NCBI RefSeq assembly: GCF_000264455.2 | Contig: NC_017958.1 | Location: forward strand, 496,001-560,000 | DNA length: 64,000 nt | Source: Tistrella mobilis KA081020-065 | GTDB taxonomy: Bacteria > Pseudomonadota > Alphaproteobacteria > Tistrellales > Tistrellaceae | Direction: 5' to 3' | Shown here: positions 5,105-28,004 of the stretch, piece after piece | Layout: every line of letters begins with the position of its first letter | How positions within the stretch are numbered: position 1 is the first letter of the stretch | Translations under genes and position numbers: made by a program | The notes under the pieces: generated by a model | Seen by the model: the letters and a program-made list of their open reading frames with translations, nothing else | What the model was told of the DNA's origin: nothing | Databases searched by the model: none

Positions 5105-5108
5105 GATG

Positions 5109-6372: not shown

Positions 6373-6843
6373 ATGGAAGAGGATCACAGCCTGGACCGCA
6401 TCGACCGCAACATCCTGCGCCAGTTGCAGCGCGATGCGGATCTGCCGAACACCGCGCTGGCCCAGAGGGTCCATCTCAGTGCCACCGCCTGCCTGCGCCG
6501 GGTGGAAAAGCTGAAGGCGCGCGGTATCATTCGCCGCACGGTCGCCATGATCGATCCGGAAGCGGTCGACATGACAACGCTGGTTTTCGTCGGCGTGGTG
6601 CTCGACCGCTCCACCCCCGAAAGCTTCGAAGATTTCGAAACCGCAGCCCGCAGCCTCAGCGGCTGCCTGGAATGCCATCTGGTGGCGGGCGAGGTGGACT
6701 ATTTCCTCCTGCTCCGCACCCGCGACCTCGCCCGCTTCAACAAGTTGCACGCTGGCGAAATTATCAAACTTCCTGGCGTGCGCCAGATCCGCACCTTTTT
6801 CGTGCTGAAAGAAATCCTGTCGACCACCGAACTGCCCGTGTGA
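6373..6843 (+). CDS. acdR: Lrp/AsnC-family regulator of ACC deaminase
   Basis: The 156-residue protein has an N-terminal helix-turn-helix (residues about 8-60, DRIDRNILRQLQRDADL to LKARGIIRR) and a C-terminal RAM/AsnC ligand-binding domain. It is divergent from acdS, the arrangement known for AcdR, which senses ACC and activates acdS. The ATG at 6373 gives the normal family length; the longer open frame to 6199 covers the intergenic control region. The name rests on this context, since Lrp paralogues are hard to separate by sequence. Confidence 0.87.
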   Translation: MEEDHSLDRIDRNILRQLQRDADLPNTALAQRVHLSATACLRRVEKLKARGIIRRTVAMIDPEAVDMTTLVFVGVVLDRSTPESFEDFETAARSLSGCLECHLVAGEVDYFLLLRTRDLARFNKLHAGEIIKLPGVRQIRTFFVLKEILSTTELPV

Positions 6844-6863
6844 GGGGGCGGTCTGACGGGGGC

Positions 6864-8282
<1,419 letters not shown>

Positions 8283-8422
8283 GATCCGGCTCCTGCTGCT
8301 GTGGCGCACTATCATATGGGCAGACATCCCCCCATCCGCCACCCGAACCACGCCCCGGACCCGCGGGTTCCCCCTGCCCGGGCCCCCCGCGCATATCCCC
8401 CTTGCAAGCCACCCCACCCCCG

Positions 8423-8627
8423 GGCGATCATCCCTCCCTCAGCCCCGATCTCCGCGAACCCCAAGCACACGTAAAAACCCCGGGAGGTTCGCACGCCAGA
8501 TTCCCCTTATCTTTCAAACACCTGCATTTTGCAGTGACGTCACACACATACCACCGCATATCTCGCCCCGAGGTTCGCGCAAATCGGCTTTTTTCCGACG
8601 CTGAATCAGGATATTAAAAGGGGGTGA
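8423..8627 (+). promoter_or_regulatory. Probable CRISPR leader and ndh upstream region
   Basis: The gap 8283-8627 contains no convincing gene. Its right part is AT-richer than its surroundings and includes CTGCA-TTT-TGCAG (8522-8534), TGACGTCA (8535-8542) and a run of T at 8590-8594. The degenerate repeat lies at the other end of the array, so this side should be the leader that drives array transcription. The exact leader limits are not defined by the sequence. Confidence 0.45.
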
Positions 8628-9054
8628 GTCGCACCCCTTGCGGGTGCGTGGATTGAAACACCTTCGACGCGGTGTATGACGCGCCATCGACAGGTCGCAC
8701 CCCTTGCGGGTGCGTGGATTGAAACTCGATGACGACCGAGTGGAGTGCCCCGGGTGCCTCGTCGCACCCCTTGCGGGTGCGTGGATTGAAACCGCGGCGA
8801 TCCCCGCCAGCCCGCCGGGGTGTGCGTCGCACCCCTTGCGGGTGCGTGGATTGAAACCGAAAAAATCGAAACAAACCGCTTTACAGGGAGGTCGCACCCC
8901 TTGCGGGTGCGTGGATTGAAACCGCGGTGCTCGGTGCCGACACGCTCGGCATCGAGGTCGCACCCCTTGCGGGTGCGTGGATTGAAACCGCAGATGCCCG
9001 CACCGTTTTGATTTGTAATACGGTTGCACCCCTTGCGGGTGCGTGGATTAGTAA
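8628..9054 (+). CRISPR. Type I-C-like CRISPR array, 7 repeats and 6 spacers, no cas genes
   Basis: The 32-base repeat starts GTCGCACCCC, contains the inverted pair GCACCCC/GGGTGC and ends ATTGAAAC, the classic subtype I-C form. Repeats start at 8628, 8694, 8761, 8826, 8891, 8957 and 9023; the first six look identical. The last one has GTT for GTC and a scrambled 3' end, marking the leader-distal end. Spacers are 34, 35, 33, 33, 34 and 34 bases. No cas1, cas2, cas3, cas5, cas7 or cas8c gene occurs in this window, so the array must rely on a locus elsewhere or be a relic. Confidence 0.97.
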
Positions 9055-9112
9055 CAAAGCGCCGATCGACCGCTCCGGGACGCATGGACATCGCCGGATC
9101 AGGAGGTAGGAG

Positions 9113-9406
9113 ATGGCCACCACCAGCAGAATCTCCATCACTCTCGCACCGGAACTGACCGACGCCGTTCATGCCGCAGTCTCCTCCGGAGAGTATGCGA
9201 CCGCGGCCGATGTCGTGCAGGATGCCGTGCGGGAATGGAAGGAGCGGCGCGACCTGCCGGGCTACACGGTCGAAGAGCTGCGTGCAGCCGTGCAAGAGGG
9301 GCTTGAGAGCGGCCGCAGCACGCTTGCGACCATGGCGGAGGTCAAAGCCGAGGCACGGCGTCGGTTCCGGGCACCGGCCCCGACCATGCGGCCCCCACAA
9401 CGCTGA
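9113..9406 (+). CDS. ParD-like ribbon-helix-helix antitoxin, apparently orphan
   Basis: The 97-residue protein begins ATTSRISITLAPELTDAVHAAVSSGEYATAADVVQDAVREW, abbreviated here as RISITL, then SGEYATAADVVQDA, the typical ParD/CopG family DNA-binding fold. Such antitoxins repress their own promoter and neutralise a ParE toxin encoded just downstream. Here no ParE-like frame follows before the convergent chemoreceptor gene ends at 9490. AGGAGGTAGG about 6 bases before the ATG is a strong ribosome site. It lies 58 bases past the CRISPR array. Confidence 0.8.
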   Translation: MATTSRISITLAPELTDAVHAAVSSGEYATAADVVQDAVREWKERRDLPGYTVEELRAAVQEGLESGRSTLATMAEVKAEARRRFRAPAPTMRPPQR

Positions 9407-9428
9407 GGCGGCCCACCCCAAAGAAAAA

Positions 9429-9454
9429 CCGCCGGAGAGTCCCCTCCCCGGCGG
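9429..9454 (-). terminator. Rho-independent terminator of the PAS chemoreceptor
   Basis: CCGCCGG (9429-9435) pairs with CCGGCGG (9448-9454). On the minus strand the stem is followed by TTTTTCTTT, the expected U-tract, just after the chemoreceptor stop at 9490. Confidence 0.75.
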
Positions 9455-9489
9455 CATTCCGTCCGTTCCTGGCCGTCCGCCCCGTCCGC

Positions 9490-11010
9490 TCACCCGGCCC
9501 GAAGCTGCCGGGTCACCGCGCCGACATTTTCCGACACGTCGCCCACATCGCGGGCGACCTGAGTGATGCTGGCGGAAATCTCGCGCGCGGCCGCGTCCTG
9601 CTGGGCCACCGCCGAGGCGATCGAGGCCGAGATGGTCTGAACCTCGCCGATGGCGGCCGAGATCGCGTGGATCGCGTCCACCGTGCGGGCAGCCTCGCGC
9701 TGGACCGAGGCGATCTGTTCGACGATTTCGTCGGTGGCCGAGGCGGTCTGCTGGGCGAGGTTCTTCACCTCGCCGGCCACCACCGCGAAGCCCTTGCCGG
9801 CCTCGCCGGCGCGGGCGGCCTCGATGGTGGCGTTCAGCGCCAGAAGATTGGTCTGGCTGGCGATGTTGTTGATCAGCTTGATGACCACGCCGATCCGCTC
9901 GCCGGCCGCAACCAGGGCCTGCACCGTCTCGTTGGTGCGCGTCGCCTCGTTCGCCGCGGTGGCCGACGCATTGGCGGCCGCGCTGGAACGGGCGGCGATT
10001 TCGCCCACCGAGGCCGAAAGTTCCTCGGTCGCCGTCGCCACGACCTGGGTGTTGGCGGTCGCCCGATCGGCCGAGCTGCCGACCCGGGCCGAGAGCGTGT
10101 CGGCGATGTCGTGGATGCCCTTGCGGCGATTGGCCTCGGCGCGCTCGTTCTCAAGCTCCGCCAGCTTCTGGGCATGGATGTCGATCAGAGAGCCGCAGGC
10201 ACGCAGCGGGTTGCCCTTGGCGTCGCGGGCCACGCCGCCGATCGCCTTGAACCACCGGTAACTGCCGTCCTTCATCTTCAACCGATAGGCGACGTCATAG
10301 CCGGTGCGGCCGCTGCGATCGTTCAGGCAGGCACCGAAGGCGTCGAAAGTCGCTGCGGTGTCCTCGGGATGGATACGGTCGGACCAGGCGTTCACCTTGT
10401 CGGGGAAGCCGGTCAGATCGTCGGACCCGAAGCCCACCAGGCGACGGAATTCGCCCGAAAAACGCCACTGTGCCTTCGGATGCATGGCGTCGCCCTCGTA
10501 GAGCAGGGCATCCCAAAGACCGATACCGGCATGGCGCGCCAGCAGGGCCATGCGCTCGACATCGACCTTCTGGTCATGCACGTCGATCAGCGAGCCGCAG
10601 GCGCGCAGCGGGTTGCCCTGGGCGTCGCGGGCGACACCGCCCACGGCACGGAACCAGCGCCAGTTGCCGTCCTTCATCTTCAGCCGGTAGGTGACGTCAT
10701 AGCCGGTGCGGCCGCTCTTGTCGTTCAGGCAGGCGGCGAATGCCTCGAAGGTATAGCCGGAATCCTCCGGATGCAGCCGGTCGGACCAGGACTGGACCTT
10801 GTCGGGGAAACCCTGCCGGTCGCCATGGGCAAAGCCCACCAGCCGGCGGAACTCGTCCGAGAAGTGCCACGAGGCCTTGGCATGCATCGCGTCGCCCTGA
10901 TAGAGCACCGCGTCCCACAAGCCGACGCCTGCATACCGGCCGAGGAGTTCCATCTGACGGGCCGCTTCTCCGTCGGCCCCCTGCATACCGTCATTCTTCC
11001 GCCAGAACAT
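9490..11010 (-). CDS. Soluble methyl-accepting chemotaxis protein with two tandem PAS domains
   Basis: The 506-residue protein has no membrane helix or HAMP domain. Two PAS domains with PAC motifs occupy about residues 20-150 and 155-285. A receptor signalling domain follows, with the hairpin tip [20 protein letters not shown], which binds CheA/CheW. The PAS copies are nearly identical, each containing [20 protein letters not shown] and RACGSLID, so the second arose by recent internal duplication. PAS domains of this type often bind haem or flavin to sense redox state or oxygen, but no cofactor ligand can be assigned. The gene is followed by its own terminator. Confidence 0.9.
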
Positions 11011-11196
11011 GATGCGCGCCTGTTGATGGTGTGAACCTGCGCAGCATCTTCATGTGCGGGCGATGAAGAATACGTTAAGGGTGGGAACTTGCGACGAAGC
11101 GCCGCAACGCCTGCAGAATATTCAGGAAAGCTGTCCTATCTTGTCCGGATACGTGATTTTCTCTCGCTGGTTTCTTATGATAAACAGTCTTCGCGT

Positions 11197-11949
11197 TCAG
11201 TGCCCGCCGATGAACGCCGCCAGCTCCGGCGTACGCTGTGCAGCGAACAGTTCGGCAGGCGCACCACGCTCGTGAATCCGGCCCTGATGCATGAACACCA
11301 ACTCGTCGCAGACTTCGCGGGCGAAGCGCATCTCGTGGGTGACCATCACCAGGGTCATGCCCTCTTCGGCCAGACGGCGCACCACCGCCAGCACCTCGGC
11401 CACAAGCTCAGGATCGAGCGCCGAGGTGATCTCGTCGCAGAGCAGCACTCTGGGCCGCATCGCCAGCGCCCGGGCGATCGCCACGCGCTGCTGCTGGCCG
11501 CCCGACAGCTGATCGGGCGTGTGATCGAAGCGGTCGGCGAGGCCCACCTTGGCCAGCATCTCGCGCGCCACCGCCTCGGCCTCGGCCGTGCCCATCTTCT
11601 TCACCACCTTCAGCGACAGCATCACATTGCCGCCGGCCGAGAGATGCGGGAACAGGTTGAACTGCTGGAAGACCATGCCGACCTTCAGCCGCAGCGCCTT
11701 CAGCTCCCGCTCGCTTTCACGGCCGTCGGCGCGTTCGCCGTCCACCGTCACCACGCCGTCGGTCGGCCGTTCCAGGCCGTTGATGATCCGCAGCAAGGTG
11801 CTCTTGCCCGATCCGCTGCGGCCGATCAGCGCCACCACCCGGCCCTCTTCGACCGAGAGATCGACCCCCTTCAGCACCTCGACCAGGCCGAAACTCTTGC
11901 GGATACCGGCCAGTTCGACCAGCGGCCGCATCTGATCAGCGGGCGACAT
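11197..11949 (-). CDS. Polar amino-acid ABC transporter ATP-binding protein (GlnQ type)
   Basis: The 250-residue ATPase has Walker A (GRSGSGKS), Q-loop, signature (LSGGQQQRV), Walker B (VLLCDEITSALD) and H-loop (MVTHEM). Length and motifs fit the GlnQ/HisP/ArtP class. It overlaps the preceding permease gene by 14 bases and is the last gene of a leftward operon: binding protein, permease, permease, ATPase. Confidence 0.93.
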   Translation of the reverse strand: MSPADQMRPLVELAGIRKSFGLVEVLKGVDLSVEEGRVVALIGRSGSGKSTLLRIINGLERPTDGVVTVDGERADGRESERELKALRLKVGMVFQQFNLFPHLSAGGNVMLSLKVVKKMGTAEAEAVAREMLAKVGLADRFDHTPDQLSGGQQQRVAIARALAMRPRVLLCDEITSALDPELVAEVLAVVRRLAEEGMTLVMVTHEMRFAREVCDELVFMHQGRIHERGAPAELFAAQRTPELAAFIGGH

Positions 11950-12586
11950 GGAGCCTCCTTTCCAGCCGGCGGGCGGCGAATGACAGCGGGTAGCAGAGCG
12001 CGAAATAGATCAGCGCCACGAAACCATAAACGGTGAAGGGTTCGAAGGTGGCATTGGCGATCATCGTCCCGGCCTTGGCCAGTTCCACGAAACCGATGAT
12101 CGAGGTCAGCGCCGTCCCCTTGACCACCTGAACCGAGAAGCCGACCGTCGGCGGCACCGCGATCCGCATCGCCTGGGGCAGGATCACCCAGCGCATGCGC
12201 TCCACATAAGACATGGCCAGGGCCTGGGCGGCCTCGGACTGGCCCTTGGGCACCGCCTCCACGCAGCCGCGCCAGATCTCGGCCAGGAAGGCGCCGGTGA
12301 ACAGCACCAGCGACACGATCGCCGCCGTCCAGGCCGAGACCTCGATCCCCGCCAGCGGCAGGCCGAAGAAGATCAGGAACAGCTGCATCAGCAGCGGCGT
12401 GCCCTGGAAGGCTTCGACATAACCGCGCGCCAGCATCACCGGCAGGCGCCGGCCCGAGACCAGGGCGAACAGCGCCACCAGCCCGACCACGGCACCGCCG
12501 GCAAAGGCGATCACCGACAGCACCACGGTCCAGAGCGCGGCATCGATCAGGTTGCGCAGGATGTCGAGCGTACCGAACTCAACCAT
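11936..12586 (-). CDS. Polar amino-acid ABC transporter permease (second)
   Basis: This 216-residue permease of the HisM/GlnP family has about five helices and an EAA loop (EAAQALAMSYVERMRWVILPQA). I chose the ATG at 12586 because GGAGGT lies 7 bases upstream; a GTG at 12595 would place the start on top of that site. It overlaps the upstream permease gene by 8 bases. Confidence 0.92.
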   Translation of the reverse strand: MVEFGTLDILRNLIDAALWTVVLSVIAFAGGAVVGLVALFALVSGRRLPVMLARGYVEAFQGTPLLMQLFLIFFGLPLAGIEVSAWTAAIVSLVLFTGAFLAEIWRGCVEAVPKGQSEAAQALAMSYVERMRWVILPQAMRIAVPPTVGFSVQVVKGTALTSIIGFVELAKAGTMIANATFEPFTVYGFVALIYFALCYPLSFAARRLERRLHVAR

Positions 12587-13304
12587 GGACCGCACCTCCG
12601 GTGGCGGGCGCAGCCCGGCCGGCGCTCAGGGCCGCACGGCGTGATGCCCTGTAGAGCAGCCGGTCGCCCAGCCGGCGCAGGATCATCCGGGTCAGGATGG
12701 CGAGGGCCAGATAGATCGCGGTCGCCGCCAGATAGGCCTCGAAAGCGCGGAAGCTGCGCGACTGGATGAAATTGGCGGCGAAGCTCAACTCTTCGGCCGC
12801 GATCTGCGAGCAGACCGACGAGCCCAGCATCACGATGACGATCTGGCTGGACAGCGCCGGCCAGATCTTGCGCAGCGCCGGCACCAGCACGACATGGCGG
12901 AAGCATTCCGCCCGGGTCATGCCCAGGCTCGCCGCCGCCTCCCACTGCCCCCTGGGTACGGCCTGAATGCCGGCGCGGATGATCTCGGCCGAATAGGCGC
13001 CGAGATTGACCACCATGGCGATCATCGCCGCCTCCACCTCGCCCAGCCGCACACCCGCCGCGGGCAGGCCGAAGAAGATGAAGAACAGCTGCACGATGAA
13101 CGGCGTGTTGCGGATCAGCTCGACATAGGCGGCCACGATCCCCGCCGCCACCGGTATCCGCTCCGATCGCGCCCAGGCACACAGAATGCCCAGAAACACG
13201 CCGAAAATGCCGCCGACCAGGATCAGCTCCACCGTCAGCACCACCCCGCGGAGCAGCACGTCGGAATAGGTCAGGATCGGCGTAAAATCAAACTGATAGG
13301 CCAT
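12579..13304 (-). CDS. Polar amino-acid ABC transporter permease (first)
   Basis: The 241-residue permease has the His/Glu/Gln/Arg/opine family layout with an N-terminal membrane region, NTPFIVQLFFIFFGLP, and the EAA loop (EAAASLGMTRAECFRHVVLVPA). It pairs with the following permease. The gene starts 85 bases after the binding-protein gene, past a strong hairpin that probably reduces its expression relative to the binding protein. Confidence 0.92.
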   Translation of the reverse strand: MAYQFDFTPILTYSDVLLRGVVLTVELILVGGIFGVFLGILCAWARSERIPVAAGIVAAYVELIRNTPFIVQLFFIFFGLPAAGVRLGEVEAAMIAMVVNLGAYSAEIIRAGIQAVPRGQWEAAASLGMTRAECFRHVVLVPALRKIWPALSSQIVIVMLGSSVCSQIAAEELSFAANFIQSRSFRAFEAYLAATAIYLALAILTRMILRRLGDRLLYRASRRAALSAGRAAPATGGAVHG

Positions 13305-13352
13305 GGACGACCCCTTCCGGGAACGGTGGGCCGATGGGGAGACCGCATGGCG

Positions 13353-13380
13353 CGGGGCAAGGGGGCGGCCCCTTGCCCCG
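13353..13380 (-). terminator. Intra-operon hairpin (partial terminator) after the binding-protein gene
   Basis: CGGGGCAAGGGG (13353-13364) and CCCCTTGCCCCG (13369-13380) form a perfect 12-bp stem with a four-base loop between the binding-protein stop and the first permease. There is no U-tract. Such hairpins commonly stabilise upstream mRNA and lower downstream expression, giving excess binding protein. Confidence 0.6.
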
Positions 13381-13389
13381 CCGGCCGCC

Positions 13390-14214
13390 TCAGAGATCCG
13401 CCGGCAGCGGTGCGCCCAGCCAGGTTTCCGAAATCTTCGACAGCCGGCCGTCGGCCTTGGCGGCGGCGATGATCTCGTTCACCTTTGCAACCAGTGCCGC
13501 CTCTCCCTTCGCGACGCCGATATAGCAGGGCGAGTTCTTGATCAGGAACTTGGGCTCCGGCCGGGTGCGCGGGTTGCGCTCCAGAATGGCGGCCGCAACC
13601 ACATTGCCGGTCGCCACCAGCTCCACCTGCCCCGACAGGAAGGCCTGGATGGTACCGTTATTGTCCTCGTAACGGCGGATGGTAGCCTCGGCGGGGGCGA
13701 TCTTGGTGAGTTCCAGATCCTCGATCGCACCGCGGGTGACACCCACCGTATGGCCGGCCAGATCGGCGGCGCCCGCGATCTTCAGATCGGCCGGGCCGAA
13801 AACGCCGTTGTAGAACGGCGCATAGGCATTGGTGAAGTCGATCACCGCCTCGCGCTCCGGGTTCTTGCCCAGGCTGGAGATCACCAGATCGACCTTGTCG
13901 GTGGTCAGGTACGGGATGCGGTTGGCGCTGGTCACCGGCACCAGCTCGGTCTTCACCCCCAGCGCATCGCCGATCAGCCGGGCCATGTCGACATCATAGC
14001 CGCGCGGCGCCATGTCGGGGCCGACGGAGCCGAAGGGCGGGAAATCCTGCGGGACCGCCACGCGCAGCACCCCCGCCTTCTGAATGGCATCCAGCCCCGC
14101 CGCCTCGGCCGTGATGCCGAAGCCGCCGGCGGCCGCCACCAGCACGGCAGCCGCCATCGCCCCCAGCACGCTGCGCCGCCGCAACCCGGTTCCGATCCGC
14201 CTGATCATCGCCAT
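13390..14214 (-). CDS. Polar amino-acid ABC transporter substrate-binding protein
   Basis: The 274-residue protein has a Tat-like or Sec signal (RRIGTGLRRRSVLGAMAA, ending near AEAA) and then the family 3 binding fold (GVLRVAVPQDFPPFG, GYDVDMARLIGDALG, DLVISSLGKNPERE). Family 3 proteins bind basic, acidic or neutral amino acids or opines; the ligand is not evident. The ATG at 14214 has GGGGAG about 8 bases upstream. It is first in the operon with two permeases and an ATPase, and is divergent from the allantoin-type operon, so it might bring in a related nitrogen source. Confidence 0.92.
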   Translation of the reverse strand: MAMIRRIGTGLRRRSVLGAMAAAVLVAAAGGFGITAEAAGLDAIQKAGVLRVAVPQDFPPFGSVGPDMAPRGYDVDMARLIGDALGVKTELVPVTSANRIPYLTTDKVDLVISSLGKNPEREAVIDFTNAYAPFYNGVFGPADLKIAGAADLAGHTVGVTRGAIEDLELTKIAPAEATIRRYEDNNGTIQAFLSGQVELVATGNVVAAAILERNPRTRPEPKFLIKNSPCYIGVAKGEAALVAKVNEIIAAAKADGRLSKISETWLGAPLPADL

Positions 14215-14444
14215 TCCCCGCACTCCCCGCTTGTTGACGCCTCGCCCTGATCGCCCGGCCCCGACCCCCGGTCGGGACGGCCGGATCCGGCACATCCCGC
14301 GGCCCCCTGTTGCCGCTGCTCATGTTTTAAGCGTGCCCATTGTTTAAGCATGAGTCAACGCCGTTTTTTGCCTTACCCCAGCATGCCACCCCTGGCATCC
14401 GCTTGCAAACCCATAGAAATCCGGCCATGCTTCCGGAAATCCAG

Positions 14445-14466
14445 CCGGTCCAACTGGTCTGACCGG
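14445..14466. promoter_or_regulatory. Candidate operator for the GntR-family regulator
   Basis: CCGGTC (14445-14450) and GACCGG (14461-14466) form a perfect inverted repeat 21 bases before the GntR start codon. Inside it, TGGTCTGACCG resembles the TNGTNNNACNA core bound by many FadR-subfamily repressors. The intergenic gap also serves the divergent amino-acid transporter. Confidence 0.5.
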
Positions 14467-14486
14467 TCTAGCCGAAGGAGCCGGAT

Positions 14487-15170
14487 TTGGCCGGAGACAG
14501 CGTCCCCGAATACGTTGCCGAGCGCCTGCAGCGCATGATCCTGGCGGGTGAGCTTGCCCCCGGCGAGGCGCTGCCGGCCCAGCGCACGCTTGCCGAACGT
14601 CTGGGTGTCAGCCGTACATCGCTCAGGGAAGCGCTGACCGTGCTCGAAACCCTGGGCCTGGTGCGGGTGCGGGCCGGCAAGGGCGTCTTCGTCTCAGACC
14701 CGTCCGCCGACGACACCGCCCCGGGGCCGCGTGGCGACCGCTACACCCATGCCGCCCGGGTCTATCAGCTGCGGCTGGCGATCGAGCCCTTCGTCTCGGG
14801 GCTGGTCGCGATCACCGCCGCCGATGCCGAAATCGACCGGCTGGCCGAGACGGTGGCCGAGATGCGCGCGGCGCTTGCCGAGGGCGATCTGGTACGCGCC
14901 GCCCAGGCGGACGGGGACTTCCACCAGCGGTTACTGGTCGCGGCCGGCAACCCGCTCTTCCCGGCGGCGATGCGCCCGGCCGGGCCGATGCTGGCCGAAA
15001 CCCGGCGCATTCCCTTCGCCAACCGCGAAAGCGTGCGCGCGCCGCTGGACGAACATGAACGCATCCTGGCGCAGATCCGTGCCCGCAGCCCGCAGGGCGC
15101 GCGCGATGCCATGCACCGCCACATCCTGTCCGCCGCCAGCCGCGCCGGTGTCGGCGTGCTGCGGCCCTGA
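14487..15170 (+). CDS. GntR-family (FadR/FCD subfamily) transcriptional regulator
   Basis: The 227-residue protein has an N-terminal winged helix (VAERLQRMILAGELAPGEALPAQ region, then LAERLGVSRTSLREALTVLE) and a helical FCD ligand-binding domain from about residue 90. FCD domains bind a metal plus a carboxylate metabolite. The TTG at 14487 is used as start because AAGGAG lies 6 bases before it. It is followed by allantoicase and ureidoglycolate lyase genes, so it probably controls ureide catabolism in response to an intermediate such as allantoate or glyoxylate. Confidence 0.9.
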   Translation: MAGDSVPEYVAERLQRMILAGELAPGEALPAQRTLAERLGVSRTSLREALTVLETLGLVRVRAGKGVFVSDPSADDTAPGPRGDRYTHAARVYQLRLAIEPFVSGLVAITAADAEIDRLAETVAEMRAALAEGDLVRAAQADGDFHQRLLVAAGNPLFPAAMRPAGPMLAETRRIPFANRESVRAPLDEHERILAQIRARSPQGARDAMHRHILSAASRAGVGVLRP

Positions 15171-15187
15171 TCGTGCTTTCAGCCCCC

Positions 15188-16225
15188 ATGAACGAAACGG
15201 ACATCAGATCCATGCCGAGCTTTGCCCCCACCGCCGCCGTCAACCTCGCCTCCCGCGCGCTGGGTGCGCGCACGCTCAGCTGTTCCGACCAGTTCTTCGG
15301 GGCGCTGGAGCGGCTGATCGACGATGCCGCCCCGGTCTTCATCCCCGGCAGATACGACGAGGCCGGCAAGTGGATGGATGGCTGGGAAACCCGCCGCCGG
15401 CGCGATGACGGCCATGACTGGTGCGTGCTGGCGCTGGCCGCCCCCGGCTGGATCGACGCGATCGAGATCGACACCCGCCATTTCACCGGCAACTATCCCG
15501 CCGCCGCCGGTCTGTGGGCGCTGGCCGCAGCCGACCTGGCCGAGACCCCCGCTGCCGATGATCCGCGCTGGCAGCCGATCCTGGCCCCCGTGCCGCTTCA
15601 GGGCGATGCCCCCAACGCCTTCCTGCCCGATCCGGCGGTGCGCACGGCGGAGGGGCAGCCCTGGACACATCTGAAGCTCGACATCTTCCCTGATGGCGGG
15701 GTTGCGCGGCTGCGCATTCTGGGCCGCCCGGCCGGCCTGCCGGCGCCGCGCGCCGACGGGCTGGTGGAGCTGTCCTCGGCCCTGGGCGGCGCCCGGGTGA
15801 TCGCCTGGAACGATGCTCATTACGGCGACCCGCGCAACCTGCTGCTGCCCGGCCTTGCGCCACGCATGGAGGATGGCTGGGAAACCCGGCGGCGGCGCGA
15901 ACCCGGCCACGACTGGTGCATCATTCGTCTGGCGACGCCGGGCAGGGTTGCATTTATCGAAATCGACACGCGTGAGTTCAAGGGTAATTATCCCGACACC
16001 TGCTCGGTTCAGGGCGTGATGGCGCCCGATGCCGCGGATGCGGCCACCGTGCCGCAAAGCCTGTTCTGGGCAGAGATCCTGACCTCCCGCAAGCTCGGAC
16101 CAGATGCGCCGCACGGCTTTACGCCCGATGCGGATCGCGTGGTGTCCCACATCCGCTTCAACATCTTCCCCGACGGCGGCGTCAACCGGCTGCGCATCTT
16201 CGGTGTGCCCGGCGCCATGGAGTGA
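15188..16225 (+). CDS. alc: Allantoicase
   Basis: The 345-residue enzyme hydrolyses allantoate to ureidoglycolate and urea. It consists of two similar allantoicase (galactose-binding-like) modules, each with the family signature MDGWETRRRR or EDGWETRRRR, then HDWC, EIDTR-F-GNYP and NIFPDGGV/DIFPDGGV toward its end. Length is normal for bacterial allantoicase. The ATG at 15188 is preferred over a GTG at 15173. It lies 17 bases after the GntR gene, and its stop overlaps the next start (GTGA). Confidence 0.93.
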   Translation: MNETDIRSMPSFAPTAAVNLASRALGARTLSCSDQFFGALERLIDDAAPVFIPGRYDEAGKWMDGWETRRRRDDGHDWCVLALAAPGWIDAIEIDTRHFTGNYPAAAGLWALAAADLAETPAADDPRWQPILAPVPLQGDAPNAFLPDPAVRTAEGQPWTHLKLDIFPDGGVARLRILGRPAGLPAPRADGLVELSSALGGARVIAWNDAHYGDPRNLLLPGLAPRMEDGWETRRRREPGHDWCIIRLATPGRVAFIEIDTREFKGNYPDTCSVQGVMAPDAADAATVPQSLFWAEILTSRKLGPDAPHGFTPDADRVVSHIRFNIFPDGGVNRLRIFGVPGAME

Positions 16226-16761
16226 GCGTCCAGATGCAGGCTTATCCCCGCACCATCTTAAGGCCGCGGCACCTGACCCGCGCGGCCTTCGCCCCCTTCG
16301 GCGAGGTTCTCGACGCCGCCGATCCCGGCCGCGCGCCGATCGCGATCAATGGCGGCACGACGCTGCGCTATGATCAGCTCGCGCGGGTGGAGACGGATGA
16401 CGAGGGCTATGGTGCGATCAGCCTGTTTCAGGCCCATGAAGCGGTCTCGCTGCCGCTGGTGATCGAGGTGATGGAACGTCACCCCCTCGGCAGCCAGGCC
16501 TTCATGCCGCTCACCCGCTGCCGCTTCGTAATCGTGGTGGCGCCGGCCGCCAGCCGCCAGCCCGATCCGGCAAACATGCAGGCCTTCGTCACCGACGGCC
16601 GCCAGGGCGTCAGCTATCGCCGCGGCACCTGGCACCTGCCGCTCACGGTGCTGGACATGGCCCATCTTCTGGTCGTCGACCGCAAGGGCCCCGGCTGCAA
16701 CCTCAACGAACACGTCTTCGCCCCCGGCACCGGCCCGCTGCTGCTGCCGCAGGAGGTTTGA
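16222..16761 (+). CDS. allA: Ureidoglycolate lyase
   Basis: The 179-residue cupin-fold enzyme releases urea from ureidoglycolate and yields glyoxylate, completing the pathway started by allantoicase. Family motifs are FAPFGEV near residue 25, YRRGTWHLPL and the C-terminal NLNEHV. The GTG at 16222 overlaps the allantoicase stop; an ATG at 16234 is an alternative. The last 110 bases before the final codons are repeated perfectly at 21922-22031, and the second copy ends in different codons (QDL instead of QEV). The 3' end of this gene is therefore the integration site of the island that follows. Confidence 0.93.
   Translation: MSVQMQAYPRTILRPRHLTRAAFAPFGEVLDAADPGRAPIAINGGTTLRYDQLARVETDDEGYGAISLFQAHEAVSLPLVIEVMERHPLGSQAFMPLTRCRFVIVVAPAASRQPDPANMQAFVTDGRQGVSYRRGTWHLPLTVLDMAHLLVVDRKGPGCNLNEHVFAPGTGPLLLPQEV
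16645..16754 (+). repeat. 110-bp direct repeat, left copy (allA 3' end; putative attL)
   Basis: Bases 16645-16754 are identical to 21922-22031 by direct comparison. This copy forms the functional 3' end of allA, with GGTTTGA after the repeat. The element to its right is AT-richer, so the arrangement looks like gene-3'-end integration that restores the target gene. Confidence 0.9.
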
Positions 16762-16828
16762 CGCCTCCCGCGGGCTCGGCGCCAGGGGGCACCACAATAG
16801 TCAAAGGCCCTTCATTGTAATTAACTTG

Positions 16829-16850
16829 AAGAATATGATCTAATATTCTT
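16829..16850. terminator. AT-rich hairpin at the island's left edge
   Basis: AAGAATAT (16829-16836) and ATATTCTT (16843-16850) form a perfect 8-bp stem around GATCTA. It overlaps the stop of the leftward TIR-like gene and separates it from the convergent allA. Its low G+C makes it a weak terminator at best. Confidence 0.4.
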
Positions 16851-18441
16851 AAATAAATCCTCGCAATTTGAGGTAAATTTCCAATTCAAGAGGAAATCGT
16901 TCGTTCGGCCAGCTGGATATAAGTTGCTTTTCATAAAGTATCTGACACGCACGCACATAGGCCATCTGGTCGAATGCACAGAGGCTGCGCGCCATCCAAG
17001 CCATCACGGTATCAAGTAAGCTGAGGCGGCCGTCCACAGTTTCTCGCACAAACGGGTACATTACAAAGGCAGACTCGTTGGAGGGTGGCTCGACCCCCTC
17101 TTCGACGAGAGTAAGAAGATCACCTTTGGAAATTCGTCTTATTCTATGATTCAAATAGCCAAGCTCATGTACAACACTCGATCTTGTGTAGTATATAGTT
17201 TTTCGTTTATTTTCGATAAATCGACGAGTGACGATATCCTTGGTTAATAGAACGATTGCGTAGGTAGCTTCATTGAGGGCCTGATAAATTGCATCCGGGA
17301 TCCTCTCACCGACCTCCGCCATGACATACTTCGGCTGCACGGTAAAGGAGACCTCACTCAAGCCTTCATCAGTTGAAGCTGATTTTGAGAATACACGGCT
17401 AATGAAATCGTGGATGTCTTGTGCCACCTGATTGGGCTTCTTCCAGCCAATTGAGCTAACCTCCCAACTACAGGCGATAAATACCTGCGCATCTTGACTG
17501 AGACCATCATGAATGCGGACTGAATTTCTGAAGAAATGCTTCGAAAGATGCTTAACAGACGCCCGCAATCCGGGAGAACTCGTACGAGAATCAATCAGGC
17601 GGAACTTGTCTCGATGATCGACATTCTCCGGTGGGCGGATTTTTCCCTTATCTACTGCATCACCATACAATAAAGTTGCAGCATGATACCAAATATACTC
17701 AAAATCCTGACTCAATGTTTTGAAATACCCTTCCCTCTTTGCTTCCTGCTCGAGATTCTGCACGCAAATCACAGGTAATTGGCTAGCAACTGCCGGCCAC
17801 ATGTTCTCCAACTTAGAATATGTATATATATCATAATATATACACCGATTTAGAAACACGCCTCGATAGTTGAGCGGGACAGGCGTGAAACGCAGTTCAA
17901 TCTGATTGTAAGTGAGGCTTACTTGACTCCGACGAATACGCTCACGCAGATAATCAAATTGCTGCAACGTTTTACTCTGGAACTGCACGAACATTTCCTG
18001 ATGCTCGCCGTTTGTGGTCCCAAAATCGAGCTCGCCAAATTCGACATCGTCTCGATCGAAGATGTCCCAGACCGGCTTCTGCTGCTCTTTCTCTCGCATC
18101 ATCAACCGCATCGCATAATCTGAAAAGGGGTAAGCTAGTATAAACCGGAGGGATAATGAGATTTTCCTACGGTTCAATTCAACAATCGCATTCATGAGCT
18201 TGTCAAATTCGTCGAGAAAGGCCTGAGAGGCTCTGTGGGCCTTGTCTCCATAACCTATGACGGGCTTGAAGAAGGTGGAGCAGGAAACCCCCATGGAGGC
18301 GATCCGGATCTGGCCCTTGCAATCGTCGCGGCCCTGTACTGCCACCACCTCGTCAGAGGCTAGCCGTAACCTTTCAGTCATATGCTCGAAATATTCCGGG
18401 GCAAACCTACTCTTGAAAAAAATAGGATTTTCATCAATCAA
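16849..18441 (-). CDS. Unknown N-terminal domain fused to a TIR-like domain (possible immune effector)
   Basis: The 530-residue protein is the last gene of the island operon. Residues about 318-430 show the pattern of TIR-like nucleotide-binding domains: QVFIACSW at the first strand, ATYAIVLLTKD, and SSVVHELGYLNHRI with Glu426 where NAD-cleaving relatives place the catalytic glutamate. The N-terminal 300 residues match nothing I recognise; they include a helical start (FAPEYFEHMTERLRLA) and LSLRFILAYPFSDYAMRL. The start is TTG at 18441, with a G-rich GGGGAG site 5 bases upstream. NAD degradation on sensing infection is a plausible role, inferred only from the fold. Confidence 0.72.
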   Translation of the reverse strand: MIDENPIFFKSRFAPEYFEHMTERLRLASDEVVAVQGRDDCKGQIRIASMGVSCSTFFKPVIGYGDKAHRASQAFLDEFDKLMNAIVELNRRKISLSLRFILAYPFSDYAMRLMMREKEQQKPVWDIFDRDDVEFGELDFGTTNGEHQEMFVQFQSKTLQQFDYLRERIRRSQVSLTYNQIELRFTPVPLNYRGVFLNRCIYYDIYTYSKLENMWPAVASQLPVICVQNLEQEAKREGYFKTLSQDFEYIWYHAATLLYGDAVDKGKIRPPENVDHRDKFRLIDSRTSSPGLRASVKHLSKHFFRNSVRIHDGLSQDAQVFIACSWEVSSIGWKKPNQVAQDIHDFISRVFSKSASTDEGLSEVSFTVQPKYVMAEVGERIPDAIYQALNEATYAIVLLTKDIVTRRFIENKRKTIYYTRSSVVHELGYLNHRIRRISKGDLLTLVEEGVEPPSNESAFVMYPFVRETVDGRLSLLDTVMAWMARSLCAFDQMAYVRACQILYEKQLISSWPNERFPLELEIYLKLRGFI

Positions 18442-23729: not shown

Positions 23730-25019
23730 ATGACCACAGATCTCGACACCGCCGCACCACACCACGCCCGCACCGGCCGACCGGGGCGACTGGCCTTCGC
23801 CCTGCTCACCGTCACCACTGCCGGCAATCTGTTCACCCCGCTCAGCGCCCGGCTGGCGGAAGCCGATGGCCAGGGGACTGCCATGGCCGGGCTCGCCTTC
23901 GCGGCCTATGTCGGCGGCGCGCTGCCGGTGCTGCTGGCCGGCAGCGGCCTGCCCGATCGTCTGGGAGCGCTCAACACCGCGAGGCTCGCCCTCGGCCTTG
24001 CGCTCACCGCCAGTCTGGTCATGATCCTCTGGCCGGGCATTCTCATGCTCGGCCTGTCGCGCGCCCTGCTCGGCATCGCCGTCGCCGGCACCTCGACCCT
24101 CGCGCCCGCTCTGATGGCCGCGCAATGCCCGCCCGGCACCGATCCGCGGCGGATCGCGGCGCGGGTTTCGGTCGCGACCACCTTCGGCTTCGGTTTCGGT
24201 GCGGCGCTCACCGCGCTCTGCCTGCTGCTCGATCCGCAGTCCTGGATGCAACCCGTCAGCGGCCCGATCTGGATCGGCATGGCACTTCTGGCCCTCACCG
24301 GCCTGCACGGCCTGCCCGATGCACTGCGCCTCACCTCCGGGGGCACCGGCCTGCGCTGGCCCGCTTTCCCGCCCGGCACCCTGGTCTTCGGCGGCGCGAT
24401 CTGCATCGCCTGGGCCGTGGTCGGGCTGGTGATCGCGGTGCTGCCCGCCAGCCTCGCCCGGGCCGGGCTCGGCGCCCATGCCGGTTTCGCCACCTTCCTG
24501 GTGATCGTGCCCGGCATCCTGACGGTGCCGGTGGCCCGGCGCATGGCCCCGGAACGGGCAATCCGCCGTGGCCTGCTGGCGCTGGTGGCCAGCTATCCGC
24601 TCATCGCCTGGGGCGCCCTGTCGGGCAGCATCGCGGCGGTCTTCGTCGGCACGGCGCTGGCGGCCACCGCCTGCTACGGGCTGATCCATGCGGGCGGCCT
24701 CGCCGGCGTGCTGATGCGGGCCGGCGAGGCCGCCACCCGGGCGACCGCCGGCTTCTTCCTGCTCGCCTATACAGGCTTCAGTCTGCCGGTGATCCTGACC
24801 GGTGCCGCCGCCGACCAATGGGGACAGACGACGGCCCTGACGGGTTTCGGTGCCGTGCTCTGCCTTGCAGCGTTGATCCTGTGGCGTCATTCCACTATCT
24901 CTACCGGCCACAAAGACTTTCCGACGCGGCCTGCGGAGACCCCCGACCAAAATGCTGACCAACAAGGGCAAATACGGGCTCAAGGCCCTGGTACACCTGG
25001 CAGGCAAAGAGCCGGGTGA
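23730..25019 (+). CDS. MFS transporter
   Basis: The protein of up to 429 residues has about twelve hydrophobic helices from residue 20 to 390 (for example LAFALLTVTTAGNLF, ALPVLLAGSGL, VGLVIAVLPASLA). Major facilitator family proteins are proton-driven exporters or importers; the substrate is unknown. The MocR gene divergent from it is the probable regulator. The final 40 residues after WRHSTIS are polar and overlap the next gene by 68 bases, which is unusual. The true end could be shorter if a frameshift is present. Confidence 0.82.
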   Translation: MTTDLDTAAPHHARTGRPGRLAFALLTVTTAGNLFTPLSARLAEADGQGTAMAGLAFAAYVGGALPVLLAGSGLPDRLGALNTARLALGLALTASLVMILWPGILMLGLSRALLGIAVAGTSTLAPALMAAQCPPGTDPRRIAARVSVATTFGFGFGAALTALCLLLDPQSWMQPVSGPIWIGMALLALTGLHGLPDALRLTSGGTGLRWPAFPPGTLVFGGAICIAWAVVGLVIAVLPASLARAGLGAHAGFATFLVIVPGILTVPVARRMAPERAIRRGLLALVASYPLIAWGALSGSIAAVFVGTALAATACYGLIHAGGLAGVLMRAGEAATRATAGFFLLAYTGFSLPVILTGAAADQWGQTTALTGFGAVLCLAALILWRHSTISTGHKDFPTRPAETPDQNADQQGQIRAQGPGTPGRQRAG

Positions 25020-25401
25020 ATTGTCCCTGGTCTCCGACATCGCCGCCGAGAACGAGATCCCCAAGAAATTCCTCGACGCGATCCTGGGCGAGCTGCGCAA
25101 TGCCGGCTTCGTGCACAGCAAGAAGGGCAAGGGCGGCGGCTATACCCTCGCCCGCCCGGCATCCGACATCCGGATCGGTCATGTGATCCGGGTGCTCGAC
25201 GGCCCGCTCGCCCCGATCGCCTGCGCCAGCCGCCGTTCCTATCGCCGCTGCGAGGACTGCACCAACGAGGAACAGTGCGCCGTACGGCTGATGATGATGG
25301 ATGTCCGCAATGCCATCGCCGGCATCCTCGACAACCGCACGCTCGCCGAAATGCGCAATCTGTCGGATGCCGACCGCCAGACCCTGATGTACCACATCTG
25401 A
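24952..25401 (+). CDS. Rrf2-family regulator, probably iron-sulfur binding
   Basis: The 149-residue protein has the Rrf2 winged helix (GKYGLKALVHLA, LDAILGELRNAGFVHSKKG-KGGGYTL). A cysteine cluster at about residues 86-106 (CASRR, CEDC, EEQC) is typical of the [2Fe-2S] or [4Fe-4S] centre of IscR, NsrR and RirA. It could therefore respond to iron, redox or nitric oxide. Its stop overlaps the kinase-like gene by one base (TGATG), so it is likely co-transcribed with the downstream kinase, sulfotransferase and perhaps the peptide genes. Confidence 0.9.
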   Translation: MLTNKGKYGLKALVHLAGKEPGELSLVSDIAAENEIPKKFLDAILGELRNAGFVHSKKGKGGGYTLARPASDIRIGHVIRVLDGPLAPIACASRRSYRRCEDCTNEEQCAVRLMMMDVRNAIAGILDNRTLAEMRNLSDADRQTLMYHI

Positions 25402-26249
25402 TGGCAAGCGCAGCCGCCGCCGTCCCCGAGATCACCGTCACCGAAGGGCCGCTGCCGCCTTTGCCTGACGCGCCGCCGCTGGATGCCGGCCCGCTGATCC
25501 GGATCGAGGCCGACCGCAGCATCCGCCTCACCGGTCCCATCGGCGGTGCCTGCCATCTGGATGCCGCCGCCACCCGCGCGGTGCTCGACACCACCGGTGC
25601 CGCCGATCCCGCGGCCGCCCGGCTGCTGCTTGCGGAAGACATGCTCCCCGGCCTTGCCTGCCATATCCACGGCCTGCTGCCGGTTTCGGGCACGGCGGTG
25701 GTGATCGGCGGGCGGGCCGTGCTGCTCGCCGGTGCTTCCGGCAGCGGCAAATCCCTGCTTGCGGCCGAACTCCTCGCCCGTGGTCATCATCTGCTGGCCG
25801 ACGGCATCGTCGTGCTCTCGGGCCTGCCAGGGCCGGCCCTCATCCTGCCGGGCCCGGCCGGGCTCACCCTGCATGCCGATGCCGGCGCCCGCTATGCCGG
25901 CCGCATCAATGCCCCACCGCCGCGGATCCGGCGGGCGGGCGTGCCGCGATTGCGTCATCTGCCGACGGCGCAGCACACGACCTCCCTGCCGGTTCTGGCG
26001 ATCTTCCACCTCTGGCAGACCATCGGCGGCCGCGATCTGGAGGTGTTGCCGGCCCGTGGCCTCAAAGGCTTCCAGACCATGGAGGGCAACGTCCGCCAGC
26101 TTCACGAAGGCCGTATCCTGCGCGGGGCTCGTCCGATCTTCGCCGAGGTCGCGGCCCTGCTCGGCCGTGCGCCGCTCACTCTTCTGCGTCATCGCCGCGA
26201 CTGGCAGGCCCCGGCCCGGCTCGCCGATCATATCGAGGCCATGCCATGA
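25401..26249 (+). CDS. HPr-kinase-like P-loop protein (candidate RiPP precursor kinase)
   Basis: The 282-residue protein carries Walker A GASGSGKS in the HprK context (RAVLLAGASGSGKSLLAAEL, then RGHHLLADG), the second Asp of the usual ADD motif being Gly. It has no HPr or PTS neighbours. HprK-like proteins of this size are encoded in lasso peptide clusters, where characterised members phosphorylate the C-terminal serine of the precursor. Both short peptides encoded nearby end in serine. The start overlaps the Rrf2 stop, and the end overlaps the sulfotransferase start by 4 bases. The peptide-kinase role is inference. Confidence 0.8.
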   Translation: MASAAAAVPEITVTEGPLPPLPDAPPLDAGPLIRIEADRSIRLTGPIGGACHLDAAATRAVLDTTGAADPAAARLLLAEDMLPGLACHIHGLLPVSGTAVVIGGRAVLLAGASGSGKSLLAAELLARGHHLLADGIVVLSGLPGPALILPGPAGLTLHADAGARYAGRINAPPPRIRRAGVPRLRHLPTAQHTTSLPVLAIFHLWQTIGGRDLEVLPARGLKGFQTMEGNVRQLHEGRILRGARPIFAEVAALLGRAPLTLLRHRRDWQAPARLADHIEAMP

Positions 26250-27112
26250 CCGCGCACCACATCACGCCGGGCGACGGCTTCGTCTGGGTGACGGCCTATC
26301 CCAAATCCGGCAGCACCTGGCTCCGGCTGTCGCTGTGGAGCCTGAAGCATGGCGGCGCGGCGCCGGATTTCGACGTGCTCGATCAGGGCTGGCTCACCAT
26401 GGCCAGCAACCGGGCGCTTTTCGATCGCAGCCTCGGCCTCGACAGTGCCTGGTTCACCGATGACGAGGCCTCCAGCCTCCGCCCGGCCGCCTTCGCACGG
26501 CGGCTGACGGCGGAACCCGGCCTGCATCTCCATCGCACGCATGAGGCGTTCACCGCCACACCCGAGGGTCGACCGGTCTTCCCCGCCGCACTGACCCGCG
26601 GTGCCGTTTATCTGATCCGCGATCCGCGCGATCTTGCCGTTTCCAATGCCCATCACTGGGGCCTGTCGATCGATGCCGCGATCGATCTCCTGACGCAGCC
26701 CGACGCCGCCCTCGACACCGGCGGCGACGGTCTTTACGGCCAGCTCCGCCAGCCGCTCGGCAGCTGGTCGGCCCATGTCGACAGCTGGACCGCCGCCGCT
26801 TTGGGGTTTCCACGGCTGATCATCCGCTACGAGGACATGGTCGCCGATCCGCACCAGGCCTTCGCGCGCATCGCCGGTTTCCTCGGCTGGCCCGATGATC
26901 CGGCAACCGTCGCCGGTGCGGTCGCCGGCACCACATTCAGCCGCCTGCAACACCGCGAAGCCGAAACCGGCTTCACCAACGCCGCCGCCCCCGGCCGACG
27001 CTTCTTCCGCCAGGGCCGCGCCGCCGGCTGGCCGAGCGCGCTCACCCCCGCCCAGGCGGCCCGGATCGAAGCCGCCCATGGCACGGTGATGGCCCGGTTC
27101 GGCTATCGCTGA
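26246..27112 (+). CDS. PAPS-dependent sulfotransferase
   Basis: The 288-residue enzyme has the 5'-phosphosulfate loop YPKSGSTWLR near residue 18 and the 3'-phosphate motif YLIRDPRDLAVS near residue 117, as in cytosolic sulfotransferases. It transfers sulfate from PAPS to a hydroxyl or amine. Its translational coupling to the HprK-like gene and the tandem peptide genes after it suggest a peptide as acceptor, since sulfotransferases also accompany kinases in some lasso clusters. A small-molecule substrate is equally possible. Confidence 0.88.
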   Translation: MTAHHITPGDGFVWVTAYPKSGSTWLRLSLWSLKHGGAAPDFDVLDQGWLTMASNRALFDRSLGLDSAWFTDDEASSLRPAAFARRLTAEPGLHLHRTHEAFTATPEGRPVFPAALTRGAVYLIRDPRDLAVSNAHHWGLSIDAAIDLLTQPDAALDTGGDGLYGQLRQPLGSWSAHVDSWTAAALGFPRLIIRYEDMVADPHQAFARIAGFLGWPDDPATVAGAVAGTTFSRLQHREAETGFTNAAAPGRRFFRQGRAAGWPSALTPAQAARIEAAHGTVMARFGYR

Positions 27113-27247
27113 CTGATCCACACTCCTTTTACGATGAAGACCGGCTGTCGATCAGGCATCGCGGAGACCTCCCGGCTTGAATACAATCATTTTGAAGCTC
27201 CAAGCTGAGAGAATATGTTCTCTGCTCAAAATGAAAGCTGAAGTAAC

Positions 27248-27385
27248 ATGATGAAGAAGATCTGCAACCAGAAGATCTCCACCTCGCCTAAAGCCTGGCA
27301 CAAGCCCCAGCTGAGCCAGATCCGGACGTCAACGACGGCGTTTGCTCTCCGCTCCAGCGCCGACGGCAAAACCGCCGTCTCCTGA
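27248..27385 (+). CDS. Putative RiPP (lasso-like) precursor peptide 1, 45 aa
   Basis: The peptide begins MMKKICNQK, has the leader motif AWHKPQLS at residues 16-23, and a predicted core after Thr30-Ala31: FALRSSADGKTAVS. The W-x-x-P-x-L pattern resembles the lasso leader YxxPxL recognised by the precursor-binding protein, and the Thr sits at the penultimate leader position. The 14-residue core has Asp8, which would close an 8-residue ring, and a C-terminal Ser, which a HprK-like kinase could phosphorylate. It matches peptide 2 in length and leader. No lasso protease or cyclase gene lies within the window, so the class is tentative. Confidence 0.68.
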   Translation: MMKKICNQKISTSPKAWHKPQLSQIRTSTTAFALRSSADGKTAVS

Positions 27386-27417
27386 TCCGGCTCTCGCCGC
27401 GCCGGCAACCGCACCCG

Positions 27418-27462
27418 CCGGATCACCCCGCCGGCGCCTTGGGCACCGGCGGGGTGATCCGG
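27418..27462. terminator. Large hairpin after precursor 1
   Basis: A perfect 17-bp stem is formed by CCGGATCACCCCGCCGG (27418-27434) and its complement at 27446-27462, 32 bases after the precursor 1 stop. There is no U-tract. The right arm and what follows it recur 59 bases after precursor 2 (27893-27935), but the left arm there is degenerate. In the rest of 27386-27696 I see no gene, only the GAATAC...AATCAT element at about 27623 that also precedes precursor 1. Confidence 0.6.
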
Positions 27463-27696
27463 GCCACACAGCCCGGGGCGCCGCGCTGCCCCCGGCCCGC
27501 TTCGCCCGACTCGCGGCCGCCCATGGCGCGACAATCGCCCTGTCCGGCGGCTATCGACCGATCCGCACCCCATTCAGAAATGACGATCGACCGTCGACTT
27601 GGCAGATAGACATCTCGCGTGCGAATACTGTAATCATATTGCTGGCTTTAAGCCGAAAGTGTGATCCCTCTATCCAGCAATGAAAGCTGCCACCAC

Positions 27697-27834
27697 ATGG
27701 CTAAAAAGGTCGACAACCGGAAGGCCCTCCCCTCACGCCAAGCCTGGCGTAAGCCCAAGCTGAGCCTGAGCCCCGCATCAGAAACGGCGTTGGCCACCGG
27801 ACCATATTATGACAACGTCTCCGGCACATCCTGA
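27697..27834 (+). CDS. Putative RiPP (lasso-like) precursor peptide 2, 45 aa
   Basis: The peptide begins MAKKVDNRK, carries AWRKPKLS at residues 16-23 and, after Thr30-Ala31, the predicted core LATGPYYDNVSGTS. Like peptide 1 it has 45 residues, a 14-residue core, Asp at core position 8 and a terminal Ser. Core residues vary freely while the leader is conserved, as expected for paralogous RiPP precursors. The 5' DNA (GAATAC, AATCAT, ATGAAAGCTG) is also shared, so the promoter was duplicated with the gene. The two starts are 449 bases apart. The ribosome site is weak. Confidence 0.7.
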   Translation: MAKKVDNRKALPSRQAWRKPKLSLSPASETALATGPYYDNVSGTS

Positions 27835-27938
27835 TCCCTTTCAGTTTCCCCCCATCAACCGTCCAGCGTCATAGCCGCCGGCGCCCCGGATACCGGCGTG
27901 GTGATCCGGGTCAAACAGCCCGGCTCGCCGAATTGCTG

Positions 27939-27998
27939 ATGTCGGAAACCGCTATCGGTGGCATGACCAAGCTCGACAGCGACGACAACGTCTCCTGA
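27939..27998 (+). pseudogene. Remnant of a third precursor (leader end plus core)
   Basis: The frame 27939-27998 reads MSETA followed by IGGMTKLDSDDNVS. SETA matches the leader end of peptide 2. The following 14 residues again have Asp at position 8 and end in Ser before TGA, with GTCTCCTGA shared with peptide 1. The AW-KP-L leader is absent; upstream lies the copy of the sequence that follows precursor 1. It is therefore a leaderless fragment, unless it serves as a core donor by recombination. Confidence 0.45.
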
Positions 27999-28004
27999 CC
28001 ACGC

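Follow-up and report, generated by a model that had tools for sequence, protein, structure and literature searches.

The window, by which we mean the whole 64-kb stretch of DNA analysed here (bases 496001-560000 of the 1.13-Mb contig C4, in a genome of 6.5 Mb and five contigs), carries two short tandem frames of 45 codons plus stop. They lie downstream of genes for an Rrf2-family regulator, an HprK-like kinase homologue (K) and a PAPS-type sulfotransferase (ST) (Table 1). A preliminary description had read the two frames, here called copies A and B, as precursor genes of a lasso-type RiPP, and the frames themselves were confirmed. Copy B has an alternative in-frame GTG start at 27661.

Table 1. 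Features of the precursor locus (positions in the window)
Feature	Position	Strand	Remarks
Rrf2-family regulator	24952..25401	+	NCBIfam rrf2_super, 116 bits (cut-off 73)
HprK-like kinase homologue (K)	25401..26249	+	Pfam Hpr_kinase_C (PF07475), 33.9 bits (cut-off 33.3)
PAPS-type sulfotransferase (ST)	26246..27112	+	Pfam Sulfotransfer_1 (PF00685), 86 bits (cut-off 22)
Precursor copy A	27248..27385	+	45 aa; leader 1-31, predicted core FALRSSADGKTAVS
RNA hairpin (inverted repeat) after copy A	27418..27462	+	-64.4 kcal/mol for 27386-27480, z -4.8
ST 3'-end remnant between A and B	27480..27600	+	self-alignment; brought along by tandem duplication
Precursor copy B	27697..27834	+	45 aa; leader 1-31, predicted core LATGPYYDNVSGTS
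Eroded third precursor end, SETA-IGGMTKLDSDDNVS	27939..27998	+	without W-x-x-P-x-L leader

The regulator stop and the kinase start overlap by 1 base and the kinase and ST genes by 4 bases, which suggests that the three genes form one unit, and the 1-base overlap makes the regulator probably its first gene. The next-best model for the regulator was CymR (92 bits, below its cut-off of 195); a CymR-like regulator of cysteine metabolism heading the unit would make sense as a sulfur-supply link to the PAPS-using ST. The downstream gene on the opposite strand presumably encodes a glycolate-oxidase iron-sulfur subunit. Scanning 27000-28000 for sigma-70 sites gave no promoter-like match. The hairpin following copy A lacks a T run and was for that reason not called a terminator. 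One of its arms recurs, with one mismatch, after copy B at 27893-27909. Self-alignment of 27037-27483 with 27482-27930 gave 66% over 464 columns, and the duplicated unit consists of the 3' end of the ST gene, the upstream stretch and the precursor. New precursor copies would arise by local duplication of this unit of about 445 bp (ST tail, upstream region, precursor).

Copies A and B share 15 of 31 leader residues and 3 of 14 core residues (Ala33, Asp39 and Ser45). The shared leader residues include Lys3-Lys4, Ala16-Trp17, Lys19-Pro20, Leu22-Ser23 and Thr30-Ala31. Thus, both peptides contain the [YW]xxPxL leader motif (Trp17-x-Lys-Pro-x-Leu22) with Thr30 at position -2, and both have Asp8 in the predicted core, within the range of core positions 7 to 9 where lasso precursors carry an acid. 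The common leader motif, Thr30-Ala31, Asp8 and Ser14 of the preliminary description were all borne out by this comparison. Gly or another small residue at core position 1 is common, not absolute, in lasso precursors; the residue here is Phe or Leu. Neither peptide matched an NCBIfam model (E up to 10) or any in PADLOC. Megablast of window bases 25000-28000 gave no match in plasmid records, from which records very near the source genome were possibly excluded.

We compared the locus with those of two other genomes of the genus, G001 and G041. The order regulator, kinase homologue, ST and precursors is kept in both. Identity to the window is 99% and 98% in the regulator, 94% and 89% in ST and, lowest of the three, 90% and 87% in the kinase homologue. 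Both relatives also carry the eroded third precursor end, differing from the window by one replacement there. A second copy-A gene is present in G041, and G001 has a run-on copy between the A and B genes. In copy B, 3 of 31 leader columns vary among the three genomes vs 9 of 14 core columns, and the unvarying core columns are Ala33, Gly35, Asp39, Gly43 and Ser45. Comparison of the window copy B with the relatives gave pN values of 0.01 and 0.04 for the leader and of 0.26 and 0.49 for the core. The core pS was also raised, to 0.28 and 0.43 vs 0.13 and 0.14 in the kinase gene; segment replacement may therefore contribute to core change in addition to point mutation. For copy A, the window and one of the G041 copies differ with a leader pN of 0.05 and a core pN of 0.39, yet an alignment of four rows shows no contrast, with variation in 17 of 31 leader columns and 8 of 14 core columns. 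The proposed pattern of conserved leader and variable core is therefore evident in copy B and less clear in copy A.

We used a strict pattern of a short frame with [WY]xxPx[LIVMQ], Thr/Gln, Asp/Glu 8-10 further on and a terminal Ser. It was run on 843,345 bases from the three genomes, in stretches chosen for hits or related enzymes, and gave 50 frames (20 in the source genome, 17 in G041 and 13 in G001), vs 0 in the same stretches reversed and 0, 0, 2, 1 and 0 in five local shuffles. Together with one precursor without the Thr (L036), the source genome has about 21 precursors, which occupy about a dozen sites distributed over contigs C1 to C4. Pro20, Leu22 and Ser45 are invariant in 18 aligned peptides of this genome, collected by a copy-B search and pattern scans which partly fixed Pro and the Leu-like residue and, in two scans, did not require Ser. 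Of 13 frames judged to be family members in a scan without the Ser requirement, 12 end in Ser. A profile built from the 18 peptides recovers its own seeds at E <=1.3e-9, which is circular for the seeds, and its further matches are weaker. Among 385 genomes surveyed from the class, at least eight (three from the genus, five from outside it) had a match at E 1e-4, a lower bound as at most 18 candidates per genome were scored; a smaller survey of 41 genomes gave matches in 3. The related short frames next to HprK-like genes that had been suggested as a check are thus present in related genomes.

The cores were parsed automatically by the Thr rule, which misplaces the core by one residue wherever two Thr stand side by side (copy A is such a case). 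Parsed in this way, cores are 13-15 residues long in 43 of the 50 peptides and tails after the acid 5-6 residues long in 40, which makes threading doubtful. The acid falls at core position 8 or 9 in 47 peptides and at 10 in 3, a range which the pattern itself in part imposes. The residue after the acid is Gly in 40 of the 50, and core residue 1 is Gly in 8.

No B1/RRE, B2 or C was found in the 64-kb window, so we assume that these functions are supplied in trans. All three are encoded in the genome, the cyclases being assigned by best profile at scores below the model cut-off. This agrees with the preliminary description, which had named lasso B and C genes elsewhere in the genome as a test: a lasso B2 homologue, stand-alone RREs and cyclase-like enzymes are all present. 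A single B2 homologue exceeds the curated cut-off in each of the three genus genomes (at C3:654.7 kb in the source genome), with the same two neighbours throughout, which we take to be 2-isopropylmalate synthase and a histidine kinase. A single B2 in the same setting in these genomes fits one peptidase for all precursors. B2 is also present in all five of the more distant genomes with precursor matches. In one of these genomes, G040, it lies on a different contig from a cluster of precursor, cyclase, ST, kinase and RRE.

The source genome has ten PqqD-type RREs. One adjoins a PqqA-like frame and is probably for PQQ, and the other nine are not tied to PQQ. Six AsnB-like frames lie by an RRE or a precursor (L035, L037, L038, L042, L044 and L045), and L043 was found by profile alone. 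All three RREs tested scored best with lasso_PqqD_Bac and five of six cyclases tested with lass_lactam_cya, in both cases below the NCBIfam lasso cut-offs; the L042 cyclase scores best as an ordinary asparagine synthase. The L035 stretch (G000:C4:1010000-1029999) contains at 3091-11072 a lasso-type cluster with a precursor, a JmjC-type gene, two RREs, a cyclase, a kinase homologue and ST, and no B2 was detected in it.

The window kinase homologue has the features of the HprK-like P-loop family, with its Walker A/P-loop kept as GASGSGKS. According to passages of PMC8498205 and PMC9266682, lasso kinases act on the precursor at its C-terminal Ser. Their His-Lys-Asp-Asp residues are essential according to a passage of PMC9266682, and parts of PMC10368454 also describe them as needed. 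The window protein does not have this set, which is found in the tailoring kinases PadeK, ThcoK and BsfK. It and both of its orthologs carry S-K-D-G in place of H-K-D-D, so that the His and the second Asp are replaced, and alignment to solved HPr kinases gave the same two replacements. Judged by these residues, the window kinase homologue looks CATALYTICALLY changed and has probably lost its chemistry. Other ST-paired homologues of the genus have Gln-Lys-Asp-Asp or His-Lys-Asp-Glu (the His by alignment). In this comparison the catalytic set is intact in all 12 unpaired homologues (several of them mutual orthologs) and, outside the genus, in all five homologues paired with ST. The changed homologues occupy four places in a tree; the clearest case is that of L035, which is sister to the intact one of L109 with support 96/95. 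The residue losses are therefore probably separate, with weak support for the deep forks.

We considered whether pairing with ST generally goes with loss of the kinase residues, and rejected such a rule. Of 75 paired kinases among the loci of the best 80 of 560 ST relatives plus two plasmid loci, 64 keep His and Asp-Asp, His being allowed within two positions; for 3 of the remaining 11, the scored frame lacked a Walker A. Some unpaired homologues are changed too (by eye: L212, L222, L257 and L267), which also argues against it. An anti-phage reading was likewise dropped, as PADLOC gave only two weak matches, both to the kinase homologue. Used as a query against genome contigs, the kinase homologue found no relative.

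The best solved relatives of the window ST are Teg12 and Teg14, followed by SULTs and StaL. Teg12, Teg14 and StaL are its closest solved relatives among natural-product enzymes, and they act on non-ribosomal glycopeptides. The ST has the features of PAPS sulfotransferases: its YPKSGSTW loop aligns with Teg12 and its RDPRD loop with paralogs, and we take the two loops to be the PAPS-binding residues. By its sequence the ST looks intact beside the changed kinase.

The kinase-ST pair also accompanies lasso-type genes elsewhere. Three clusters of other genera (L184, L185 and L186) contain the pair together with a precursor, B1/RRE, B2 and C, and three more contain all of these without B2 (L183 and L109 from other genera, L103 from the same genus). 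The complete lasso sets of other genera carry Ser-ending precursors with a W- or Y-leader, and the W form of the leader is common in kinase-ST loci elsewhere. We then took 82 loci, the best 80 of 560 ST relatives in named genomes and two from plasmid records, and searched them with purpose-built profiles at E 1e-5. Among these best 80 of 560 plus two, a kinase homologue is present in 79 and is directly adjacent on the same strand in 73. Counted with ordinary AsnB included and with some loci cut by contig ends, a cyclase is found in 58 of the 82 loci (best 80 of 560 plus two), an RRE in 59 and B2 in 44; 70 have at least one of the three, and 33 have all four with the kinase. Their record titles, for the same best 80 of 560 plus two, name Proteobacteria, Bacteroidetes, Chloroflexi, Acidobacteria and others. 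A precursor pattern without the Ser requirement gave 42 frames in 38 of the 82 loci (best 80 of 560 plus two), 32 of them Ser-ending, vs 1 in reversed and 2, 1, 1, 4 and 1 in shuffled controls. The kinase-ST pair thus commonly goes with lasso-type genes, and this gives the window genes a firm place among them. Since most of the paired kinases are intact, the simplest chemistry for most of these clusters would be phosphorylation and sulfation both.

Exact-phrase searches gave no paper on sulfated lasso peptides or a lasso sulfotransferase, and no description of the product of the kinase-ST pair was found in the literature searched, which was mostly outside subscription journals. A putative sulfotransferase gene is mentioned for Firmicutes lasso clusters in a passage of PMC8498205, and the passages of PMC8776678 do not link lasso peptides with a sulfotransferase. 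Two further loci deserve mention here. L040 (G000:C2:601000-620999) contains at 7848-12184 a kinase-ST pair, two Cys-containing precursors and an NTP_transf_6 nucleotidyltransferase; a nucleotidyltransferase is also part of the pseudomycoidin cluster (passage of PMC8498205). L240, on a contig titled Rhodospirillaceae, has eight ST genes in a row, and no other profile matched there.

The wider class of lasso-type RiPPs is already known, and the nearest parallels to the window are phosphorylated lasso peptides. The paeninodin leader is of the YxxPxL type. Paeninodin (PadeA/K), ThcoA/K, SyanA/K and pseudomycoidin share with the window an HprK-like gene and a Ser-ending precursor, as far as passages of PMC8498205 and PMC9266682 describe them. 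The window differs from them in having Trp instead of Tyr in the leader, in B1, B2 and C lying outside the locus, and in a kinase without the His and second Asp which is followed by an ST. The Bradymonadales lasso peptides (BsfA, BsfK, BsfB1, BsfB2) resemble it in a discrete RRE, a kinase, a YxxPxL leader and an Asp8 ring, but have Gly1, Ile at -2, phosphorylation at Ser3 and one compact cluster (passages of PMC10368454). On a plasmid of Thalassobaculum sp. OXR-137 (NZ_CP139716.1) an HprK-like gene is followed by ST, and genes annotated as lasso B2, lasso PqqD and asparagine synthase lie nearby. Its ST-paired kinase is changed too (Q-K-D-G) and the unpaired kinase of the same cluster is intact; unlike in the window, the cluster is compact. 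A pattern scan of a 12.8-kb stretch of this plasmid gave no W-x-x-P-x-L precursor that was convincing. Lasso clusters with multiple precursors, such as those of the caulosegnins, likewise combine several precursors with one enzyme set (passage of PMC13352647), but the source genome has about 21 precursors in about a dozen places on four contigs, several cyclases and one B2.

Taken as a whole, the data are best explained if both frames are precursors of a lasso-type RiPP pathway, and we hold this with good confidence. The window would contribute only precursors and tailoring genes, and RRE, B2 and C would come from elsewhere in the genome, where the single B2 presumably serves all of the approximately 21 precursors. 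If the frames are expressed, leader residues 1-31 would offer W-x-K-P-x-L for RRE binding and, at -2, the Thr for the peptidase. In the predicted core 32-45, an AsnB-like cyclase would then link the N terminus to Asp8, and the remaining six residues would form a tail with Ser at its end. The HprK-like protein and ST would tailor this tail, most likely at the C-terminal Ser. For the window product we lean towards sulfation alone, with the kinase relic as a substrate-presenting partner.

The same enzymes could yield an unthreaded branched-cyclic (lariat) or linear peptide modified at the C-terminal Ser, and we regard this as a serious, though less probable, alternative. The short cores and tails and the varying first residue of the family favour it, as does L186, a complete cluster of another genus with the same short core form. 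On the other hand, complete lasso gene sets accompany such precursors, and reported lasso core lengths start at 13 according to a passage of PMC13352647. Of the earlier lasso reading we keep the lasso-type RiPP precursors; a threaded lasso is doubtful with predicted cores of 14 residues which begin with Phe or Leu. It is improbable that the AsnB-like enzymes form no ring at all and instead amidate or activate a carboxylate, at Asp8 or at the C terminus. C-terminal amidation or nitrilation by AsnB-like RiPP enzymes is known, but about 3,500 of about 3,800 RiPP-linked AsnB homologues are lasso-related (both from passages of PMC13060819); the L042 enzyme, with its best score as asparagine synthase, would fit amidation, and the co-occurrence of B2 and RREs in the source genome speaks against it.

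That the locus is a decayed or orphan remnant would explain why local enzymes are absent, the kinase has lost residues and is less conserved than its neighbours, the third copy is eroded and the G001 copy runs on. However, the copy B leader is nearly constant in three genomes while its core changes, G041 has a further copy and the ST has stayed similar in the relatives with its window loops kept, so we give this explanation little weight, slightly less even than amidation. Short frames in GC-rich DNA which match no NCBIfam or PADLOC model may also arise by chance. We consider this practically negligible here, because the frames are conserved in relatives and because the controls, both in the genus and in the loci of other organisms, refute it as far as the family goes.

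Compared with the preliminary description, the present analysis adds the eroded third copy, the genome-wide family, the ST partner, the changed kinase and B1, B2 and C outside the window. What is new is the dispersed layout of many precursors with one peptidase, and a kinase with two of four catalytic residues lost beside an intact-looking ST. The pathway genes appear to be dispersed through the genome and not gathered in one cluster. In a more far-reaching version, which we consider unlikely as it stands, about 20 precursors on four contigs, one peptidase and several RRE/cyclase modules would form a decentralised factory; at its kinase-ST loci the HprK-like protein would be losing kinase activity in separate lineages and docking the C-terminal Ser to ST, with sulfated tails replacing phosphorylated ones. 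The changed unpaired homologues make this version slightly less probable. The kinase-ST pair occurs repeatedly in lasso-type loci from many phyla, and the window, with a kinase half probably without chemistry and an intact-looking ST, would separate the two activities. One peptidase for many leaders would also make leader choice testable in a natural setting. Genome searches for lasso peptides generally set out from B and C genes and the clusters surrounding them, and genomes with precursors detached from these genes would be undercounted. One such group of precursors in the source genome lies in L029 (G000:C2:455001-475000) at 11971-17290 and in L030 at 1145-1270, where no cyclase or RRE was detected in these stretches and G041 has a similar arrangement. 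Its six precursors surround GDSL/SGNH and MBOAT acyltransferase genes, and O-acylated products are possible for them.
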